A DNA stretch of 64,000 bases from Polychytrium aggregatum (taxonomy: Eukaryota; Chytridiomycota; Chytridiomycetes; Polychytriales): NCBI RefSeq assembly GCF_025602895.1, contig NW_026516251.1, positions 124,001 to 188,000 of the forward strand, given 5' to 3'. The notes under the pieces are model-generated. The model worked only from the letters and a program-made list of their open reading frames with translations, was not told the origin of the DNA and did no database searches. This document shows, one piece after another, positions 3,301-51,337 of the stretch. The position numbers were made by a program, and so were the translations under genes. The number at the start of each line of letters is the position of its first letter. Position 1 is the first letter of the stretch.

Positions 3301-6300
3301 AGGCAGAGCGAGCTCAACTTTCGCTGCGTGTGTCGGAGCTGCAATCGTTCGAGCAGAGGTAAGATGTTTTGCGTCCAGCGGAGTGCAAATATGCAGGAGA
3401 TGATACCTCTATGTTGAGTATTGATGAACAGCTGTGAAGGAGTGCTGACTGAAAGTGTATCAACTTGGTTCAGATACCTGAATGCGCAATCGGAAATGCA
3501 AAGTGCCCAGGAAAGCCTCCAAGAACATGTAGGTCTAGGCACAATTCCACGCCTGAGCGAACTTTGAGGATGCTGATTCATGCGTTTCTGTCAACCGATC
3601 TCAGAGTGACAGCATCGTGGTCCTCTCCGGTCAAGTAGAAGCCACGAACCAAGCCTACGAGGTAGATACCGATAGCATCTCCTTTGGAACGCCGAGTACC
3701 GACGGCTCTTGTCGCGCGTGCCACCTGCTGATTCCCAAATTTCGGTACTATACCACATCGAACGTCCCACAGGCGCAAAAAGTCGAAAACCACTCTCTGA
3801 AAGATGCGCTTTCCAAAACGGCCGCTCAGAGCATGCTGTTGGAAGGGCAAGTTGCCGATCTGCAGCGACAGCTCGATGAGAACGTGAGCAGCTTGGCTGC
3901 TCTCGGGACCGCCCAGGCCAAAAATGGCGATTTTGAGTTGGTTATCGCCCAGCTCGAGGCCAAGATTCAGGTAAGGCCGTGACGGCGCAAAAGTAAATTT
4001 GCGTACATGGCAGCTCGACAGCTGATATTTTGCGGCAACAGACACAGCGAGATCAGTTGGAAGCCGACTCGACACGAAACCAGCAGCTTGAAACTCAGAT
4101 AAGCGAACTTTGCAAGAATCTCGACCGCCAAAGCGAAGAGCGCGAGAGCATGCTGCGGGATCACTCGGATGCGTCCGATGCCTGTTTGAAGAAGATTTGC
4201 GCTCTTGAAGCACGGGTCCAGGTGCGATAGCCATAGCACGGAGGCCCAACACTGCGGGTGCGTGGCGTAGTGGCTGCTTCGAGGCGAGTGTCTGATATGG
4301 CCTTTGGTATGCGTTAGGAGCTGCAAGCCGCCGTCGATGTTGCCTCGGAAAACTTGACCTCCAAAGCCACCGAGTCCGAGTCGCTACAACGCCAGCTGGA
4401 CGAGCTCAACCGAGCCTTCGAAGCACAAAAGACTTGCGCAGAGAATGGTGTTGTGGCAGAGTCGCGAAACCAAGACCTGCAAGAGAAGGTGAAGCGTCTC
4501 GAGGTGGATCTAGAGGTAAGGCTCTAGGGTTCGAAAGCAGCCTTCGAGTGGGTCCCAAAATGCGCCTCTTATTCCCGATGCGAACATTTTTGATAGGCTG
4601 AGAGATGCAAAGCTGAGGAGCTACTCGTCGAGATCGAGCAAGTCACAGTAGCTCGAAACGAATTGGAGGCTCAGCTCTGCAGCTCACGTTCGCTCGCTGA
4701 GCAATTTGAAGCCGATCTGGCGAATCAAAAATGCGCTTCCGAAAGTCTACGTAGTCAGCTGCAATCGGTTCAAGAGGACTTGCGGGTAAGCGATGTATTT
4801 CACCCTGCTGAGAACGTGCACACTCATCATCAGGCGCGCTAACATGGTCTTGGTGATGTACTAGATGCAAGCACAACAGCTTGCCTTGGTGGCAGCTGAG
4901 AAAGAGGAATGCTCCCAAGTAGTGAGGCGGCTTGAAGAGCACCTGGAGACCCAGAAGACCACTGCTGCTGTGGAGGCTGCACGCGCTTCGGAAGAATACC
5001 GCAAGCTGTCACTGCAGCTGGAGCAGGCCGAGGCTGAACATCTGGTACGACCCTAACTCAGTCGGTCGCGCTCGAAGCGGCATGGGGTACTTGATGCTTC
5101 GAGGAATCTGATGATCGGTTCATTTGCATGATTGATTGTAGATCCAGAATACGCGAATTGCTGAGCTCCAAGACAGACAACAAGAGAGGGACGCCCAGAC
5201 ACAAGAGCACCAACGTCAGTATAGCAACATGCAGGAGCGGTGCCAAAAAATGGAGCACGAGGTTATTTCGACCCACAAGGACTTGCAAACCTTATCCGAG
5301 ATGCACAAGAGTGTCAAAGAAGCCTCCGATACCCTTGAACAGCAACTAAATAGCGTCCGTTCGGGTAAGCTGTCGCTCGCGTTTGCAAAGCTCAAGCGGT
5401 GTCTCATCCCGAATCATAACACGCATCCATCATGCCCACAACATGCGATCTCCAGAAAAAGAGGCCCACGCCAAATCTATCCAAGATCTTGAGCTGCGAC
5501 TGGAAAATATGACTACAGTCATCAAGGTATGCTCTTGCTGTGTCTATCGGAGCGACCGGATGGAGACTAACACTGTGGCATGTCACAGACCCGCGATGAC
5601 CGCATTCAAAGTCTACAGAGCGAACTTGAGGAGCGCACCGAAAACATGCACCGAGCACACCAGGTAGCGCTGAGCGTGATCGATTGCAATGACACGGGCT
5701 GTGGCTCAGGGGCTCACTGTGGCTATCCTTACCATCAATCAATGGCACCAGGAGCTGTGCGCTCATCGAGAAGATCTCCAAGCTCAGCTCGAGTCCTGCC
5801 TGAATGATCTCAATGCCGCTCGTCACGGTCAGTATCTTTTCCAAAGGATGTAGCTGGACAAAATCATTTGTTTGTTTCTTTGCTAACATTGCGCCTGACC
5901 CGCTGTAGACCTCTCGTTGGAGAAAAAGTCTGTCCTGACGGCCAAGAATGAGCTCTCTGTCCAAGTCCAGGCTGCCCGATCGCAAATCGAAGAGCTTTCG
6001 ACCAGAAACGAAGTGAGTCTCCATTTGTTTCCCTTGGAATGGCGCAGTAGAGCATCGGCGACATTGTATGTGCAGCGCTATATAATAACCACAGTCATTC
6101 CACCAGGGGCTGCTGATACAAGTCCAGGATCTATCTGAGGAGCTGAAGCACAAGCAGCAGTCGCTCGATGAGATAAAGGCTCGCCAAAGTCAGCTTCTTG
6201 AGGTTAGTCGTGACTGGTAATTGGTTTTGCAGTTGGACCCGAGCTAAAACCAATTGGCCATCCAGAACATGCAACAAAAATCCAACGAATATGAGATTTT

Positions 6301-13736: not shown

Positions 13737-14036
13737 CAAATGCGGGACACACTCGCTTCCGCTGTCAAAGAGGAGTCTCCAATCGACTGCGTCCATTTAC
13801 AATCGAAAGAACAACTTTGACCATCTCCGGGTGAAGATCGTAGGCGGCCCTGCAGTCCCCACAATCACCCTGCACACGGCGGTCGTGCTGTGTGCTGCAT
13901 TGATGCTGGGGCTCTGTTCAGGATGACAGCCGTGATTGCAGCATCGCAGTGCAGCGACACATGAATCAATGTATTCAGAACCCCGACGGACGTGCGGGCT
14001 CGGGAAGCAGTGTCCCGTTTCGCTGGCGACAACAAA
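13737..14036. mobile_element. Miniature transposon (MITE) with Fanzor 3' remnant
   Basis: A 300-bp non-autonomous element flanked by TA at 13735-13736 and 14037-14038. Its ends carry the GGGACAC core shared with the Fanzor transposon at 47.4 kb: GCGGGACACAC on the left and GTGTCCCGTTTCGC, inverted, on the right. On the right, the core sits 20 bp from the flanking TA, the same spacing as in the other two family members. On the minus strand, 13914-13797 still reads NAAHSTTAVCRVIVGT then TIFTRRW, matching the Fanzor C-terminus NAARNMIAVCRSIVET then AVFTRRL. Everything else of the nuclease and the transposase is missing. It lies between the MCP1-like gene and the tRNA-Sec. Confidence 0.75.
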
Positions 14037-14061: not shown

Positions 14062-14148
14062 GGTGATTTGAGCCCGGGTGGCCCCGGGAGTGGACTTCAA
14101 ATCCACTGGTCGCGAAAGCGGCAGGGGTTCGATTCCTCCTTATCGCCG
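14062..14148 (+). tRNA. tRNA-Sec (UCA anticodon)
   Basis: The 87-nt sequence folds as a eukaryotic selenocysteine tRNA. The 9-position acceptor pairs 14062-14070 with 14139-14147, with seven pairs and two U-U mismatches, followed by discriminator G and an encoded CA. A two-base linker leads to a D arm with a 6-bp stem CCCGGG/CCCGGG and a 4-nt loop UGGC, the most diagnostic tRNA-Sec feature. The anticodon arm has a 6-bp stem AGTGGA/TCCACT, loop CTTCAAA and anticodon TCA at 14097-14099. The long variable arm is a 5-bp stem with a GAAA loop (14109-14122). A 4-bp T stem with TTCGATT loop follows. The B box GGTTCGATTCC is intact and a TTTT stop lies at 14162. It would decode UGA as Sec with the SECIS/EFSec machinery. 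Only upstream promoter elements could be affected by the MITE ending 25 bp before it. Confidence 0.88.
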
Positions 14149-14356
14149 CACAGCCAACAATTGTTTTCAATCAGGGCTACCGTTTTGCTGGCCGCATACT
14201 CACACCGCCCAATCCCATGATCTTGGCTAGATTCATCAATCTCTGTCTGGAGTGCACCACCATCACACAGGCTTCCATCCAACTCAATATACTTTGCATG
14301 CACTACAACGCCCACAAAGCGGAACGGGCCGCTGTGTGAGAGAAGACACAGTCATC

Positions 14357-25925: not shown

Positions 25926-26624
25926 AAAACCAAACGCTCCTCACAGCGTTGGCAGCCAATGAGCATCAGCTTCGTCTTGAAGGTCAGCACTAGCGCTTGC
26001 GCTAGATGGCCCGGTCGATGTGACTGTAGTTCGTGATGTACTTGCATCACGAGGCACTCTTTGTAAATGTGTGACCCGCTCGGTGTGCTTGTACACTGTA
26101 TTCAGGGGAAAATGGGACACCTGCCCACAACCCATTTGTCAGCGTAGTATGCGATGGCATGTGTCTAGCTAAGCCATAAGAAATATAACAGATCACTTTG
26201 GCAGCCTCCGAGTCAACACCACCGGTCGCACTGCAGCGATGCGGAAATCGAGGGTGCTGTGTTTGGCCATGAATGCAATGAGTGGGTGGGTGTATTCAGG
26301 TTCTAGAGAAAAACCCCTGTCATGACTCAAAACGGGGTGTCCCATTTCATTTTGGAATCGCTGTATCAGCACAGGCAGAAGTGTGGCTACGGCGTGCTAG
26401 TTGACTGTTGCTCACGAATATTGGTCAGGGGCACAAATGGTATGCGGATGGTGCTCTTGAAACGGCAAGCACAGTGTATTGAAGGAACCAGCGTCGGACA
26501 AACAATCGTCTTGGAGACAGGATACTACATTTGCGAGTGATGTGCAACAACACATGCCTGGTTCAGGCCGCAGTCCGCGATGAGCATCTGGTAAACTTGA
26601 GCACATCAGAGACACGGCCGGCGA
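25926..26624. other. Convergent intergenic region with MITE
   Basis: This is the 3' flank of the Gln-repeat gene (+) and of the YbaK gene (-). It is mostly filled by the miniature transposon at 26101-26363. I see no further gene. Confidence 0.55.
26101..26363. mobile_element. Miniature transposon (MITE) retaining Fanzor 3' end
   Basis: A 263-bp element flanked by TA at 26099-26100 and 26364-26365. The left end TTCAGGGGAAAATGGGACAC closely resembles the left end of the Fanzor element (TTCAG, A-run, CGGGACA). The right end, inverted, reads CAG, 17 bp, then GGGACACC, with the same 20-bp spacing as in the big element. Inside, 26171-26228 aligns with 47463-47520, the last codons and immediate 3' flank of the Fanzor gene, including an identical run of more than 20 bases from 26181. 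The segment from the terminus to the end of the Fanzor frame is kept, and the rest of the nuclease and the transposase are gone. Confidence 0.82.
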
Positions 26625-45691: not shown

Positions 45692-46933
45692 CTACAGCCG
45701 ACGTGCGGCCTGGCGATCGCCAATCGAGTTCAGGTAGCTTTTCAGAAAGACGCGCTGCTTCTTGGCCAGGTCCTTGATCTTGTCAATCTCGGAATCTGTC
45801 AGGAGGAAAAGCATGCGGTTGCCCTTGCTCCGGTTGACCTTGCTGTCGAGAATGACGCCGTTCTCGGTGTCCCGGTTGTCGGTTCCGAACGAATTGGAGA
45901 CAATGTGCTCGATGTCAAAGGCGTGCACGCAGCAATCGGGTGACGAAAAGGGTGCATGCTTGGCATCGGTCGCAGAGACGGTCCACAGCCCGAGCACATC
46001 TAGAATGAGCTCAATGCCATTGGAGCACTGGATGAGATGGCCGGGGCGGGTCTTCCAGTGCTCAACGATGGTCTTCTTGACCGACTCGGGAAAGACCGGG
46101 GGGCGGTCGAGGCTCTGGATGTGGGCGTCGTTGGGCCGGTCTGGATCGAGATTGGCGCGGATGAGGAACTTGAGCACCTGGTAGGCCAGCTTGCCGCGGA
46201 CCTGGGTGTCCTGCAGCCACGAGGCCATGAAGGCGGGGTCCTTGACGGACGTCAGGATCTGCTCGATGTACTTTGCTCGCTTGTACGAGAAACTTGGGGC
46301 AACCTTGAGCGAGGCGGGAGCGGTAGGTTTCCCGTGGGTGCTGGGCGGCCGCGAGTGCGAGTGCGAGTGCGAGTGTGGGTGCGAGTGGGAGTCGGTGGGC
46401 GACGATGTGGGCGACGTCTTGGCCTTCTTGCGCTTGGGGCCGCTAGCATGGCGGTCGCTCGGGTCGGCATCGAGGGTGCTTGGTGGCGGACTGGGTGGCT
46501 CGGGCGAGAAGAGCGAGCTCCAAATCGGACCCAGGAAGGTCGAGAGTCCCAAAAACCCGAGGATACCAGAAGCCGCCGCATCGTCGCAGGCCGCAGTGTC
46601 GTAGAGCAGCTCGTGCAGATGATGTCCGTCAAAGACAAAGTAGCGGCGTCGGTGCGAGCTCGACGATGCCGACGACAGAAACTTGAAGCCCTGGTCGCGG
46701 GCATGGGTTTCGCTCACGCACGAGTAGGAGCGATAGAGCCCAAGGATGACGGTCTTGTCGACGTGGACAAATTCGTAGGTATAGTTGCCGCGGCCCTTGC
46801 CAGGGTCCTTGGTGCCGGTCACGACGCTGACCCGCCGACGATCCTTCCAGACGACGAAGAGGGTGTCCTCTCTCAGACGCTCGGAGACGAGCCCCAGGAG
46901 GGTCTGCATGGATGCGTCCATGGGTGCATCCAT
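45692..46933 (-). CDS. Unknown single-exon protein with C-terminal HNH-like motif
   Basis: An uninterrupted frame of about 413 codons from MDAPMDASMQTLLGLVSERL. An upstream in-frame ATG at 47194 would add 87 low-complexity residues. An N-terminal folded part (LREDTLFVVWKDRRRVSVVT, YEFVHVDKTVILGLYRSYSC) is followed by a Pro/Ser linker with (SH)n repeats and KRKKAK, a possible nuclear signal. The C-terminal domain begins YKRAKYIEQILTSVKDPAF and ends with CVHAFDIEHIVSNSFGTDN, then ENGVILDSKVNRSKGNRM. DxEHI(V), an Asn-containing loop and NRSKGxR resemble HNH nuclease or DUF1524 active sites (His343, Asn about 359 and 368 by my count). I do not recognise the full-length family. The absence of introns contrasts with most neighbours. 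It is the closest host gene to the Fanzor element. Confidence 0.7.
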   Translation of the reverse strand: MDAPMDASMQTLLGLVSERLREDTLFVVWKDRRRVSVVTGTKDPGKGRGNYTYEFVHVDKTVILGLYRSYSCVSETHARDQGFKFLSSASSSSHRRRYFVFDGHHLHELLYDTAACDDAAASGILGFLGLSTFLGPIWSSLFSPEPPSPPPSTLDADPSDRHASGPKRKKAKTSPTSSPTDSHSHPHSHSHSHSRPPSTHGKPTAPASLKVAPSFSYKRAKYIEQILTSVKDPAFMASWLQDTQVRGKLAYQVLKFLIRANLDPDRPNDAHIQSLDRPPVFPESVKKTIVEHWKTRPGHLIQCSNGIELILDVLGLWTVSATDAKHAPFSSPDCCVHAFDIEHIVSNSFGTDNRDTENGVILDSKVNRSKGNRMLFLLTDSEIDKIKDLAKKQRVFLKSYLNSIGDRQAARRL

Positions 46934-47386
46934 GGGTGCGGGAGACGGTTTGGTTTGGCGCCGGTGGGTGTGGATGTGGCAGAGCGAGAGCGAGAGCCGA
47001 GGATGCGCTGCTTTTGGATCGGGAGCAGAAGCAGATCCGACAATCCTGGCAGAGACGGTGGGGTATTTGACGGCGGCTGCCAGGGAGGCGACGGCGACGG
47101 CGACGGTGCTGTGGATGTGCTTGCGGCTGGCAGGCAGGGGCTGGTGGAGACAGAGTTTGGTCCTGTGTATGGATGGTGCGGTGCGCCCGGACATGGGCCG
47201 CCTTGGTCTGGTGTGATTTGGTCTGGCGGCGGTCTTGGCTGCAAGAGCGCTCTGGGGTTGACAGAGGGCGACGCACGAACGAAAAGGAGACGGACGGCGC
47301 TGCGTTGTTATCGTTCCTGTGGGATCGTTCCCGTGGGCGAGTGCATCGTCGATTGTGATGAGATTATGATAGGCCTCGCTACACTT
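46934..47386. promoter_or_regulatory. Promoter side of the HNH-like gene
   Basis: The frame stays open upstream of 46933 as far as 47194, but its composition is low-complexity. The rest, to the transposon boundary at 47387, holds the presumed promoter. No other gene seen. Confidence 0.4.
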
Positions 47387-47388
47387 TA

Positions 47389-47600
47389 TTCAGAAAAAAC
47401 GGGACAATATAGCCGTTTCCATGAACATGTAGTATGTGCTGTGCTTGCGTCAAGCAAAGCCACAAGAAATAAAACAGATCACTTTGGCAGCCTCCGAGTG
47501 AAGACCGCTGGTCGCTCTCCGGTCTCCACAATCGACCTGCACACTGCGATCATGTTGCGCGCCGCATTGACGTCGCGATTCCACACTGTCCGGCAGCTGG
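47389..47600 (-). ncRNA. Candidate omega-RNA region at the Fanzor 3' end
   Basis: In TnpB and Fanzor systems the guide RNA scaffold is transcribed from the 3' end of the nuclease gene through the transposon end, and the guide comes from adjoining host DNA. Here that corresponds to the last codons and the 90 bp from the stop to the left end. Support in this window is indirect: the miniature element at 26.1 kb conserves exactly this stretch (26115-26228 against about 47401-47520). I did not compute a fold, and the 5' limit is arbitrary. Confidence 0.35.
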
Positions 47601-49845
47601 GATTCTTGCAGCTCCTGACAAAGTGGGAATTCGCAACACTGGGCGCATCGAGTCCTTCCAACCGAACTGGCTCCAGGCACTTGGAGCACACTTGCGAGGT
47701 GTTGAACTCGTTCGTCGAGACTACCTTGACGCTTCCATGATGGTGATTGGGACGGCGTCGGTGGTGCTCGAACTGCTCAAAGTACCGAGCAAACCGCTGC
47801 CTCCGAGGGCTGGATGCATAGCCCTTGCCCTGTCGCCATGACGCATTGCCAAAGGCGATCACCACATCGGTCCGTATCGGGGCGTGCTTCAGGACGGCCT
47901 TGCACATCTTGTCAACGGCCACTTGGCGCCTCTTGTGGCCCGTGAAGCGATGGTGACGGGCCTTCTTGCCAAGGTGGAAGTCGAGCTGCACTCGCAGCTC
48001 CGGTCGCAGGACATGGGTGAGATGGACCTTGAAGGCCTCCGAGGACGACACCTTGGGCGAGGGAGTGGTCGCCATCCAGGTCTCGATGCTGAGTCGATAC
48101 TTCATGGTGTTGTGCCACTTGGTGTTGGACGTATGGCCACACATTTGCTGGTAGTGGCCATTGGAGAATGAGACCACCTCGTCTTGGTGGCCCGGTGCTT
48201 GGATGACCGCCGTGAAGATGGAGCCGACTCCAGGATCGATGCCAATCCAAGTGGTGCGATCGGGGTCTGGGTCGCCGATGTGGGCCTGGATGCGCTGCTC
48301 GGCAGTCGGAGGAGGCTCGATGGTCTCGGTGTGATCGGTTCGAGGCAGAAACTTGACGAGACCGATGGTGCATCCAATGCCATCGGTGCTGATCTCGTAG
48401 TTGAACAGCTTCTTGTTCACGTCCCGCTCTTGGAAGAGGGAACTACGCAGCTTGAAGCAACTGCGCCAGAGACGATCCTGGTTGTTGACACCGTCCTCAC
48501 CTTCTTCCTTGAGCATGTCCCGGGTGAGGCCAAGGCGCTTCTTTGGACCCAGGAGCTCCCAGAGTGCGACGGTGTCAATCTTGACATACTTGGCCGTGGC
48601 AGTGCATAGAGGAACCATCGTGCACACGGCCGGAGGAGTGTCGACGGCGAGCTGCTTGAGTGCCCAGTTGAGCCTGGATGCCAGCTTGTTGATCTTGGCC
48701 TTGGTGGTGCCGAGCTCAGACTTGGCCTTGGTGAACCTCTTGTCGTCGGAGGGAATGCCTTGGGTAGTGAGGCTGTCCAGCTTGGCCTGGCGCTGCAGCT
48801 CGGTGACTCGGAGGGCGGGCATGTCGCAGTCGATCCACTTGTGGACATTGTCGACCATCTTGTCTCGGGCGAGGATTCCCACATGGTGTGAGAGGCGATG
48901 GAGGGCCCGGAAGCGGTCCTGGTCGTTGCTGTACCGAAACTCGTCCAGGACGTGGCCAAAGTCTGGATAGAGGAACTCGAGATCGGCCTTGGGTGGAGTC
49001 TGCCCTGGTTTCTCGAAGAGCTCGAGACAGGCCTCGATGGCGTCGTGCTTATGCTTGTTGGCTGGGAAGACGGCAGCGCAGAAGCGGCGAAGAAGTCGCC
49101 AGTAGGCCAGGTCGAGGTGGGTGGTGCAGTTGGTGGCATAGGCATTGACAGCCAGTGTGAGAAGCTGACTGTGAGCACCATCAGGCAGACGAGGGGCCGG
49201 AGGCAGGTCTGCGTGCCGAGTGGTCTGGTAGTCGCCAAAGGAATCAACCAACTGCTCGTTGTATTTCTCATTGTCCCCGGTCGGCGAGAGGGCATCGGCC
49301 TGGACGATCTTAAAGCACTGGCGGATGAATGCAGGGGTGGCCCTGGAGATGACAGGGACGGGAAGATCCTGCTCGATGCACCGGAGGATGTGCAGGTTGA
49401 GCAGCCTGGATGCCTCGAACTGGATCTGGGTCATGGCCTCGACGGTGGCCTGGATCTTGTCGCGGAGAGCGGGATTGAGACAACAGCCATCCATCGTCTG
49501 CTTGAAGCAGCCGAACTGAGGGGCGGATGACCTTCCATCCACGAGTGGGACGACGGAGCTCTTGAGGGGCCGGTATTTGGGACACCTGTTGGTGTTGCTT
49601 CGCTGATGATCGGTGCCATCGCACTTGGGACATCGCTTGACAGGACCAGATGAGGGACCAGGCTCGGTGGGATCGACATCCATTGGATCTGCAGAAGCAG
49701 TGGTGGTGAGCGACGGAGCAACAGACGACCAAGCATACGTGGGGTCAGAATACGAACCAGAGACAGGCTCCGACTGTGACTTGGCTTTCTTGGGCCTGGG
49801 TGGCCGAGGCTGGCCATCACCGGTACCCTTGCGCTTCGGAGGCAT
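47479..49845 (-). CDS. Fanzor (TnpB-like) RNA-guided endonuclease
   Basis: An uninterrupted 788-codon frame encoding a eukaryotic TnpB homologue, a RuvC nuclease directed by an omega-RNA. The N-terminus is basic (MPPKRKGTGD with KKAK, a likely nuclear signal). A Cys-rich knuckle CPKCDGTDHQ with a further Cys lies at residues 72-88. A helical middle region follows. RuvC-I is WIGIDPGVGS with Asp537. The next RuvC strand is DVVIAFGNASW near 660-670, where the usual Glu is absent. The conserved TNEFNTSQVCSKC carries Glu713, a candidate for the relocated catalytic Glu reported for Fanzors. The zinc ribbon uses Cys720, 723, 746 and 751. RuvC-III is WNRDVNAARN with Asp758. No stop or frameshift is visible, so the protein could be active. 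At 788 residues it is somewhat longer than well-studied Fanzors because of its N-terminal extension. Confidence 0.93.
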   Translation of the reverse strand: MPPKRKGTGDGQPRPPRPKKAKSQSEPVSGSYSDPTYAWSSVAPSLTTTASADPMDVDPTEPGPSSGPVKRCPKCDGTDHQRSNTNRCPKYRPLKSSVVPLVDGRSSAPQFGCFKQTMDGCCLNPALRDKIQATVEAMTQIQFEASRLLNLHILRCIEQDLPVPVISRATPAFIRQCFKIVQADALSPTGDNEKYNEQLVDSFGDYQTTRHADLPPAPRLPDGAHSQLLTLAVNAYATNCTTHLDLAYWRLLRRFCAAVFPANKHKHDAIEACLELFEKPGQTPPKADLEFLYPDFGHVLDEFRYSNDQDRFRALHRLSHHVGILARDKMVDNVHKWIDCDMPALRVTELQRQAKLDSLTTQGIPSDDKRFTKAKSELGTTKAKINKLASRLNWALKQLAVDTPPAVCTMVPLCTATAKYVKIDTVALWELLGPKKRLGLTRDMLKEEGEDGVNNQDRLWRSCFKLRSSLFQERDVNKKLFNYEISTDGIGCTIGLVKFLPRTDHTETIEPPPTAEQRIQAHIGDPDPDRTTWIGIDPGVGSIFTAVIQAPGHQDEVVSFSNGHYQQMCGHTSNTKWHNTMKYRLSIETWMATTPSPKVSSSEAFKVHLTHVLRPELRVQLDFHLGKKARHHRFTGHKRRQVAVDKMCKAVLKHAPIRTDVVIAFGNASWRQGKGYASSPRRQRFARYFEQFEHHRRRPNHHHGSVKVVSTNEFNTSQVCSKCLEPVRLEGLDAPSVANSHFVRSCKNPSCRTVWNRDVNAARNMIAVCRSIVETGERPAVFTRRLPK

Positions 49846-50115
49846 GGGGGCAGAGGATGCTGGATGCCTGCCAGTGGTACTGGTCAGAGCAGAGACTTCT
49901 CTTTATCGTACAATAGCGCGATGATCAGATCAAGGCGAGATGAGGGAAGAAAGCAGCAGGACGAAGGTGTGGCATTTATACCCGAGAGCAGGAGCCCGTC
50001 TGCGCGGGCTGGTTGGGGAAGTGACCCTGTTCAAAAATCGCCGAGAGGTTCAAGCCAGGGATGTGAACGTGAGAACGGCGGCTTGATTGGAGGGACAACC
50101 CCAAATTGGAGGAAC
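49846..50115. other. Transposon internal spacer
   Basis: Lies between the truncated transposase and the Fanzor start, so it should contain the Fanzor promoter. CATTTATACCC at 49972 could supply a TATA-like element on either strand. No gene seen. Confidence 0.4.
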
Positions 50116-50148
50116 TCAACCCCAAATCGGTGGGGACTCAACCCCAAA
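50088..50148. repeat. Short direct repeat at the transposase 3' end
   Basis: Three copies of a unit of about 22 bp around AACCCCAAATTGGAGG / AACCCCAAATCGGTGG. The last copy overlaps the transposase C-terminal codons and brings the stop codon at 50116. Confidence 0.8.
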
Positions 50149-50922
50149 GAAGTTCTCGATGGGATTGAAGTCGGGCGAGGCAGGTGGGGTGAAGATCACT
50201 GACCATCCTCGGCGCTCGATGCAGTCCAGGACAGCCATTGTCTTGTGCATGCTGACATTGTCCATCACAATCACAGAGTCGTCCGGGAAGCTCGCTCGCT
50301 CAAAGAACTCGACCATCGAGTGTGTCTTGAATGATGTGGGGATGTACATGCGATGCAGCACACCAGAGTGGTTGATGGCAAATGCAGCCGAGACAGACTT
50401 GTGCTTCATGTGATTGCGCTGGCGAAGCGGAGCACCCTTCGGTGAGTATCCGTAGAGAGGGAAAATGGATTTCCTGATCCCTGTCTCGTCGACAAAAACG
50501 AATCGCCGCGGGTCGATGGAGCGGGCCTGGTCCCTGAACTGTGCCACTCGCTCATCCAGTCGCTTGGACTTGTAGAGGTGTGTTGCCCTCTTGTGTGAGA
50601 GACCTGCTCGGTGGATGGCAGTGTGGCAGAGTGAGAGTGATACTTTCCTCTGGAGGATGGACTCGAGCATGCACCGCAACACAGGACCAGTCTGGAACGG
50701 GTCCTGTTCAATCAGGGTGCGAATGACTGGACATGCCTGCTCGAAGAAAGTGGATCTGCGAGCTGGGACCCGGGATGGGTCATCCAGCTTGCATCCTCGG
50801 TGCCAGCGATGGATGGTGCTCTTGGATACACTGAATATGGAGGCGACCTTACGCAGGCTATGGATGAGGGCGTAGCATCGCAATGCGGCGGTGCGAAAGT
50901 CGGATGTGTGGCGAATGGTCAT
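50116..50922 (-). pseudogene. DDE transposase (Tc1/mariner, IS630 superfamily), C-terminally truncated
   Basis: The protein begins MTIRHTSDFRTAALRCYALI with a helix-turn-helix (SLRKVASIFSVSKSTIHRWH). A second DNA-binding region follows (PVIRTLIEQDPFQTGPVLRC). The DDE catalytic core has the first Asp in RRFVFVDETGIRK, the second in SVIVMDNVSMHKTMAVLD and the final Glu in SPDFNPIENFFG. Directly after that Glu the frame runs into a short tandem repeat and stops (VESPPIWG). The usual 30 to 60 C-terminal residues after the NPIE motif are therefore missing. All three acidic residues remain. No Asp/Glu is mutated, but loss of the C-terminus probably impairs activity. It is transcribed in the same direction as, and upstream of, the Fanzor gene. 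Confidence 0.85.
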
Positions 50923-51006
50923 GGCCAGCGCGCGATAACATTGGGTAGCAAAATATTCGATGAATGGTCAAAAACCCGGGTGTCCCGTTTTTTATTGGAT
51001 TGCCTG

Positions 51007-51337
51007 TAACGACGATCAGCCACCAGATTGTATTCAAGACCGAGCTTCCAGAGGAAGCGATTGCGAACAGAAGGAGCCGCTGCACGAGCGAGACCCCCGA
51101 TTAGCGAAACAAAAAGGCGCCGTGCACCACCCATTGCCAGAGACGAGATGGAACGGATGCGCTTTTTGTCGGAACAACAGATAGAAATCAATAAAAATGT
51201 GCAGCCACCAAAAAGGAGTCTGGGAGCGAGTGTATCGGGCCAACGCAACATCATACACCCGGAAGCTCCACCACTCCACCTCCACCACTCTAGATCACCA
51301 TTGCAGCCTCGGAGAGCGAGAGACAGCCTCCCTCTCT
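51007..51337. other. Transposon flank / aconitase 3' region
   Basis: 331 bp between the transposon end and the aconitase stop codon. It has a relatively AT-rich patch (AATCAATAAAAATG near 51190). No gene seen. Confidence 0.45.

Follow-up and report, generated by a model that had tools for sequence, protein, structure and literature searches.

Fanzor1 genes have been described in TA-flanked elements with terminal inverted repeats, as in Spu-1, the element of Spizellomyces punctatus that carries SpuFz1 (PMC3627910, PMC10432273), and the element analysed here, from the chytrid Polychytrium aggregatum, is of the same kind. Like it, Spu-1 is reported to have conserved host bases 5' of its left end only and to include protein-less short derivatives in which the right end is kept; the ghost loci of S. 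punctatus are likewise described as keeping the omegaRNA region without the protein (PMC10432273). The two elements differ in the upstream motif, which is CA-TA in Spu-1 and T-TA here, in the size of the Fanzor protein (788 aa here; Bao and Jurka, PMC3627910, give 633 aa for the Spu-1 protein), and in the transposase, which lies within the same element here, whereas Saito et al. 2023 (PMC10432273) report finding none within Spu-1 repeats. The left termini of the present family contain target-derived bases, a feature that goes without mention in the passages on Spu-1 covered from PMC3627910 and PMC10432273.

A mariner-like transposase and a Fanzor1 protein share one TA-flanked element, as they do here, in PGv-1 and PUl-1 (PMC3627910). 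PGv-1, however, is described as a single-copy virus element with an extra GIY-YIG protein, whereas in the P. aggregatum element we identified no third protein and the genome holds hundreds of its ends. The logic that we propose below for this family is the one put forward for IS200/IS605 TnpB (PMC11870625, PMC10432273), in which the guide corresponds to the right flank and the motif to the left flank, and in which the nuclease cuts the empty site and the element is copied into it; the present element differs in having a DDE transposase and a TA duplication instead of TnpA, and in its eukaryotic host. TnpB-driven copying is reported as shown in plasmids (PMC11870625), and nuclease-driven copying was raised for Fanzor by Saito et al. 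(PMC10432273), in whose account the biological roles of Fanzors stay unknown.

Results

A Fanzor1-type gene inside a mariner-type transposon

The window, that is, the whole 64,000-nucleotide stretch of P. aggregatum DNA that was analysed, contains a reading frame that an earlier note had proposed to be an intact Fanzor gene, on the grounds of a stop-free run of 788 codons, the catalytic residues D537 and D758 and four zinc-ribbon cysteines. This description was borne out: the frame runs from ATG to stop on the minus strand (47479-49845), both aspartates are found at those positions, and the cysteines are C720, C723, C746 and C751. The third catalytic residue, which the note had not named, is E713. 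The fingerprint of Fanzors is given as a DPG motif at RuvC-I together with an alternative glutamate six residues before the zinc finger (PMC10711439), and we find both in this protein, in which D537 lies within IDPG and the spacer between E713 and C720 is FNTSQV (EFNTSQVC). Downstream of the C4 zinc ribbon there is an RD motif (R757-D758), again as in Fanzors. Alignment with relatives of 49 and 62 percent identity shows no change at E713 or D758, and the N-terminus (MPPKRK...PRPKKAK) resembles, by eye, a nuclear localisation signal.

Profile searches, which the note had suggested as a check of Fanzor identity, gave a consistent picture. The Pfam family PF07282 matches the protein with E 1.7e-9 (38.1 bits; curated cut-off 26.3), and the NCBIfam model guided_TnpB reaches 27.7 bits against a cut-off of 100, so that the protein is only remotely TnpB-like. 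A nine-sequence profile of copies and relatives, searched against the PDB, placed SpuFz1 at the top (E 6.2e-4, over aa 703-787) and GtFz1 next (E 0.11, over aa 705-767), both matches covering the C-terminal part of the protein only; a single-sequence search against solved structures put LaTranC (E 0.083) narrowly ahead of SpuFz1 (E 0.45). Taken with the fingerprint, these matches support the assignment of the protein to the Fanzor1-type nucleases, with a nuclease activity that is predicted from sequence. Its nearest profiles, SpuFz1 and GtFz1, and its non-IS607 eukaryotic carrier transposon point to Fanzor1 rather than Fanzor2. The frame is more than a chance one because of the PF07282 match, the many genomic copies and the nonsynonymous deficit reported below. 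A lone or domesticated host gene was ruled out, since the frame lies inside a repeated element with common ends. No relatives were found in plasmids, and none was confirmed in viral contigs.

The Fanzor gene is carried, as the note had not recognised, by a 3.6-kb TA-flanked DNA transposon of the IS630/Tc1-mariner type (Table 1), which has what is expected of a Tc1/mariner element: a DDE transposase of this family, terminal inverted repeats and a TA duplication. The inverted repeats are imperfect and a TA stands on both sides, the left end reading TA followed by CAGGCAATCCAATAAAAAACGGGACA and the right end TGTCCCGTTTTTTCTGAATAAAGTG followed by TA. The transposase is encoded on the same strand as the Fanzor and matches DDE_3 with E 1.7e-21 and NCBIfam IS630 with E 1.9e-33 (116.2 bits, cut-off 100); compared with the 268 aa of the window copy, the sister copies L010, L019, L026, L115, L117, L118 and L119 have frames of 310 aa. 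The footprint of insertion can be seen at one sister insertion, in a repeat for which a search with the joined flanks gave at least 40 matching places: in six empty copies that were fetched the site reads TTAACA, and the filled copies have TTA, the element, and then TAACA. It follows that the TA is duplicated and that the T is the target's own, and at this one site with empty copies an element-borne origin of the T was thereby ruled out.

Table 1. Features of the element in the window; positions are those of the window.
Feature	Position	Strand	Basis
Whole transposon including both TA target duplications	47380..51008	-	copy-shared stretch ends, end comparison
Element proper (without TA duplications)	47382-51006	-	
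TTA at left junction (host T + left TA), predicted TAM	51007..51009	-	T frequency; TAM role inferred
Left terminal inverted repeat CAGGCAATCCAATAAAAAACGGGACA	50981..51006	-	
IS630/Tc1-mariner-like DDE transposase, 268 aa, C-terminally truncated	50116..50922	-	DDE_3, NCBIfam IS630
TATAAA 5' of Fanzor ATG, possible TATA box	49975..49980	-	sequence reading
Fanzor1-type nuclease ORF, 788 aa	47479..49845	-	frame, profile matches, fingerprint
RuvC-I Asp537 (DPG motif)	48235..48237	-	
RuvC-II Glu713, alternative Fanzor position, six residues before C720	47707..47709	-	
Zinc ribbon C720-C723-C746-C751	47593..47688	-	PF07282 match and residue check
RuvC-III Asp758	47572..47574	-	
Right 167 bp: Fanzor ORF end, 3' region, right repeat, TA	47380..47546	-	kept in short derivatives
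Candidate omegaRNA scaffold, last 100 nt	47380-47479	-	fold
Right terminal inverted repeat TGTCCCGTTTTTTCTGAATAAAGTG	47382..47406	-	
First 15 host bases past right TA, predicted guide	47365..47379	-	SpuFz1 analogy

Copies and short derivatives across the genome

Across the 64.68 Mb of the genome (418 contigs), the Fanzor protein was scored in at least 57 places including the window copy, and 47 of these 57, the best matches among 1310 initial candidates, are stop-free. The other scored copies are 93-96 percent identical to the window copy. Most of the copies that were fetched have window positions 47380-51009 in common and differ in their flanks; the exceptions are L013, which is part of a larger duplicated segment and has flanks in common with the window, L025, in which the left part is missing, and copies with internal gaps, among them L011, L014 and L023. 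A 31-base left-end pattern, allowing up to 3 mismatches, occurs 355 times genome-wide (181 + 174), and as a control the reversed pattern occurs 0 times.

Left and right ends could be joined into 66 pairs among the ends listed, namely the first 100 of the 172 places at which each exact end occurs. Of these pairs 53 span 3.2-3.8 kb, 3 span 1.1 kb and 10 span 283-385 bp. Every one of the short derivatives L075-L090 (284 to 386 bp, and 1115 bp) retains at least the right-most 167 bp (16/16), and on the left side no less than about 96 bp is kept as well. At four sites (C312/C368, C373/C135, C79/C9 and C223/C156) one homologous copy carries the long form and the other the short form, where for C79/C9 and C223/C156 the long form is judged from end positions and the comparison is of right flanks alone; either exchange between copies or the recurrence of identical deletions would give such pairs. 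A Fanzor-free mariner family was not found in the sequence searched for relatives of this element.

A one-sided T beside the left end

Genome-wide, 172 of the 178 exact left ends have a T immediately 5' of the left TA, TTACAGGCAATCCAATAAAAAACGGGACA occurring 172 times and its variant with A, C or G in first place 6 times. On the other side, the right end GTGTA is followed by A in 41 of 213 cases and by C, G or T in the remaining 172. Both totals include homologous duplicates; when unique sites are considered (n=50), T stands on the left in 44 and A on the right in 14. As background, T precedes TA in 0.14 of cases within the window (both strands pooled). The remaining flank positions hold at most 0.18 bits each, position -2 being A or T in 37 of 51 sites. 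Given the symmetry of the TA target, a preference of the mariner type alone would be expected on both sides.

The one-sided T is a motif kept beside the left end, of the kind looked for in a homing element, where it may serve as part of the target-adjacent motif (TAM). In S. punctatus, the conserved CA 5' of the left repeat plus the TA corresponds to the TAM measured for SpuFz1, CATA, and the TAM of GtFz1 is given as TTAAN (both PMC10432273). By like logic, the TAM of the P. aggregatum Fanzor should be TTA, a prediction made by analogy with the S. punctatus system.

Target-derived bases in the left termini

Most left ends of the family start CAGGC. Set against the 178 canonical ends are 36 in which the first base is not C and 22 in which the second base is not A, counts that again include homologous duplicates. 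A cut-and-paste transposase brings its own ends, and bases of the right flank should therefore not occur inside the left end. Where the first base is not C, it nevertheless equals the first base of the right flank at 17 of 19 unique sites, these being the unique sites with such a base for which the right flank is known. The lengths of the matches at the 19 sites are 9 bases at one (TAGTCAATC), 7 at two, 5 at four, 4 at four, 3 at three, 2 at one, 1 at two and 0 at two. The two sites without a match are L009/L057 and C400/C386, and the two of the 17 that match by one base only are C358:134481 and C2:927951. For C52:26304 and L009, whose right end reads GTGCA, the register presumes that CA is a mutated TA. 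Of 18 overwritten tracts, all but those of L015 and C358:134481 end in 1-5 bases that agree with the canonical terminus (16 of 18). At 16 of the 19 sites the left TA is preceded by T, and at 3 by A.

The homologous duplicates L013, L016, L053, L075 and L082, together with L057 (the same site as L009), were dropped before counting, and the other non-C left ends omitted were either recognised from sequence or position as homologous duplicates or not pursued further. A further four deviating left ends (C24:452960, C112:954811, C168:156020 and C52:31361), none with T before the TA (three have C and one has A), fall outside the 19, as their right end is absent from the fetched stretches.

The correspondence was assessed by shuffling flanks among sites. 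In a set of 58 sites that was deliberately enriched for deviating ends, the base agrees with the right flank at 34 of the 54 deviating positions; 20000 shuffles averaged 14.0 and never gave more than 27. The sites found through the ORF alone (n=36) yield a weaker signal, with 13 of 29 deviating positions matching against a shuffle mean of 7.4 (p 0.018); overwritten left ends are present at 5 of these 36 sites (L012, L015, L056, L061 and L068). Among the right termini, a deviation in the last four bases is seen in 1 of 50, and 0 of 50 match the left flank. The event that overwrites a left end is not obligatory, because L058 and L060 have canonical left ends despite 3-4 right-flank bases common in register. 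The subfamily variants CGGGCG and CAGCGTATCC mostly lack a right-flank match, as should be the case when later insertions inherit an already altered terminus.

Because the right flank is the predicted target of the guide, these tracts can be read as scars left when a cut on the right side of TTA was repaired by copying of the element. On this reading, for which we see about even odds, the left termini preserve in the genome a record of homing by a eukaryotic Fanzor, with bases of the guide target retained. Target-derived left termini are not reported for Fanzor elements in those portions of the Fanzor and TnpB literature that our search covered.

The right end as a putative guide RNA

The right end may be transcribed as an omegaRNA that takes its guide from the flank. 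Its last 100 nt are predicted to fold with -24.9 kcal/mol (z -2.73), 2 of 200 shuffles being equally stable, and the terminal repeat and the TA sit in a stem of this fold, as has been described for Fanzor1 guide RNAs (PMC10711439). When the fold was compared across six right ends, three divergent and three from the family, two-sided changes were seen in 2 of 21 pairs, and the RNAalifold covariation term for the same six was +1.89, which is unfavourable. An overlap of guide RNA and reading frame could appear as a drop in synonymous variation at the 3' end of the Fanzor gene, and there was no clear drop among 23 copies. The guides of SpuFz1 are reported to be 14-15 nt long (PMC10432273).

Constraint, integrity and age

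For the analysis of variants we used 23 Fanzor copies, 20 obtained via protein similarity and 3 via the ends, leaving L114, L115 (frameshifts) and L116 aside. Variants present in at least two copies comprise 131 synonymous and 120 nonsynonymous changes and 2 stops, and those present in a single copy comprise 92, 95 and 5, respectively, where the neutral expectation (single-copy spectrum) is about 55 synonymous to 130 nonsynonymous to 7 stops. This nonsynonymous deficit indicates that the Fanzor protein has been under constraint, in a set of which 20 of 23 copies were chosen by protein similarity.

The idea that the Fanzor is better preserved than the transposase was rejected, since the 18 of 20 open Fanzor frames are an ascertainment effect: among six long elements picked by their ends alone, an intact frame remains for the Fanzor in 2 and for the 310-aa transposase in 4. 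Both frames are open in L117. An empty allele of an ordinary site was sought in two further joined-flank searches, and none was present among the matches listed in the first search (46 matches; best 40 of 376 candidates) or in the second (47 matches; best 40 of 127 candidates). The homologous sites with flank matches carried the element, and in this one assembly the insertions may predate the duplication.

Discussion

We propose that the P. aggregatum family represents a Fanzor1 RNA-guided nuclease on an IS630/Tc1-mariner element that homes into empty sites by cut and copy, and we put the probability of this reading at roughly 0.55. In such a system the transposase would move the element into TA sites, and the right end would be transcribed into a guide RNA that takes its guide portion from the adjoining host sequence. 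Each copy would therefore target the empty version of its own site, with TTA on the left. The Fanzor would then cut the empty site at a point some bases rightward of the TTA, and the left fragment, ending in the TTA and a tail of target bases, would pair with a filled copy and prime copying of the element. Where the tail partly matches the left terminus, trimming might be incomplete, proceeding back only to a matching base, and the target bases would stay. SpuFz1 is reported to cut the non-target strand after base 16-17 (PMC10432273), and a similar cut would leave a tail of this kind. With a cut to the right of the TTA, the right end would receive no bases from the left flank, and 0 were seen there; short derivatives that possess the right end could be driven in trans.

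The asymmetry of the flanks could instead be the work of the transposase alone, with a left end that joins preferentially beside T-TA and with the Fanzor as a passenger, an explanation that we hold to be unlikely. Its strength is that the inverted repeats are imperfect, so that the two ends are not equivalent, and that the left T also accompanies short derivatives without the Fanzor gene (9/10 short pairs; 12/14 unique short-derivative sites), although these derivatives keep the putative omegaRNA end and thus provide no Fanzor-free control. The target is a symmetric TA, however, and no mirrored preference for A is seen on the right (41/213); nor does a preference of this sort explain why right-flank bases are found in the left terminus at 17 of 19 sites. 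Those bases might have entered without any nuclease, through slipped pairing and mismatch repair between filled and empty alleles or through a template switch in replication. In-register pairing would indeed give tracts that end in bases of the canonical terminus, as 16 of 18 do, and exchange between copies occurs or recurs, to judge from the long and short forms at four sites. We nonetheless regard this route as very unlikely, given that it should overwrite right ends as often as left ones, where 0/50 right ends and 5/36 left ends are affected (Fisher p 0.011; the 36 are a subset of the 50 sites), and that it leaves the left T unexplained.

It could also be that the copies are relics of an element that once spread and is now dead, its Fanzor having no present function. 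The truncated transposase of the window copy, the intact Fanzor frame in only 2 of the 6 elements chosen by their ends, and the lack of a polymorphic empty allele of an ordinary site among the matches listed are all in keeping with this. Against it stand L117, with both frames open, the 47 stop-free copies among the 57 scored best matches, the invariance of E713 and D758 against relatives as distant as 49 percent identity, and the ratio of shared variants (120 nonsynonymous to 131 synonymous, where about 130 to 55 would be neutral), and we consider the relic explanation quite unlikely. It concerns the present state of the family, and is compatible with homing in the past.

If homing by cut and copy is indeed what these elements did, Fanzor gains a function that genome sequence alone suffices to reveal. 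As the family combines, within one genome, a Fanzor with a transposase and a putative guide-RNA end, and has hundreds of ends there, that role becomes testable, and a Fanzor with many open copies is at the same time an added enzyme candidate. The family predicts a TAM (TTA), the position of the guide, and a scar that would separate nuclease-driven copying from plain transposition, and the scar test could be applied to any genome with a multi-copy Fanzor family.

Long and short forms of the element share insertion sites

At four insertion sites, two homologous copies differ in what they carry: the long element is present in one, and the other has a short form, a derivative keeping the right 167 bp of the element, with the breakpoints that are standard for the family; at C79/C9 and C223/C156 the long form is inferred from end positions, with right flanks compared. 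The occurrence of both forms at the same site reflects either exchange between copies or recurrent deletion.

Features in the window and at related loci of the assembly
Feature	Position	Strand	Details
Selenocysteine tRNA gene, predicted	window 14062-14149	+	Rfam RF01852, 68.3 bits (gathering 47)
Decayed fragment of Fanzor C-terminus	window 13814-13943	-	43 aa, 44% identity
Short element relative	window 26092-26365	-	84% identity to element positions 3492-3581
500-aa ORF, weak HNH_4 match	window 45692-47194	-	E 0.0013, 19.1 bits, under cut-off of 22
Zinc-knuckle-like C-x2-C-x4-H-x7-C motif	window 49582-49632 (aa 72-88)	-	close to Fanzor N-terminus, read by eye
Long/short sites	C312/C368, C373/C135, C79/C9, C223/C156		loci L015/L075, L051/L082, L092/L089, L094/L085
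Deviating left termini	C24:452960, C112:954811, C168:156020, C52:31361		loci L133-L136

Deviating termini and neighbouring genes

The four deviating left termini in the table are preceded, before the TA, by C, C, A and C, respectively; these loci are known by their left ends, the fetched stretches not reaching the right ends, and may represent another branch of the element family. Within the window, the short relative has the left end TACAGCGATTCC preceded by A, both read by eye. The 500-aa ORF is next to the element and lies outside its boundaries. ARAGORN concurs with Rfam on the selenocysteine tRNA, a gene that, if genuine, narrows the range of eukaryotes that could be the host.

Fanzor families in the genome

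Across the whole genome (663 candidates), all 150 of the further Fanzor-like places that were scored exceeded the PF07282 cut-off, and their scores fall into several classes. Partial Fanzor relatives with approximately 50-66% identity were present in the fetched loci L017 (6441-6977), L024 (1433-2341) and L028 (113-626). Several Fanzor families seem to be present in the P. aggregatum genome.
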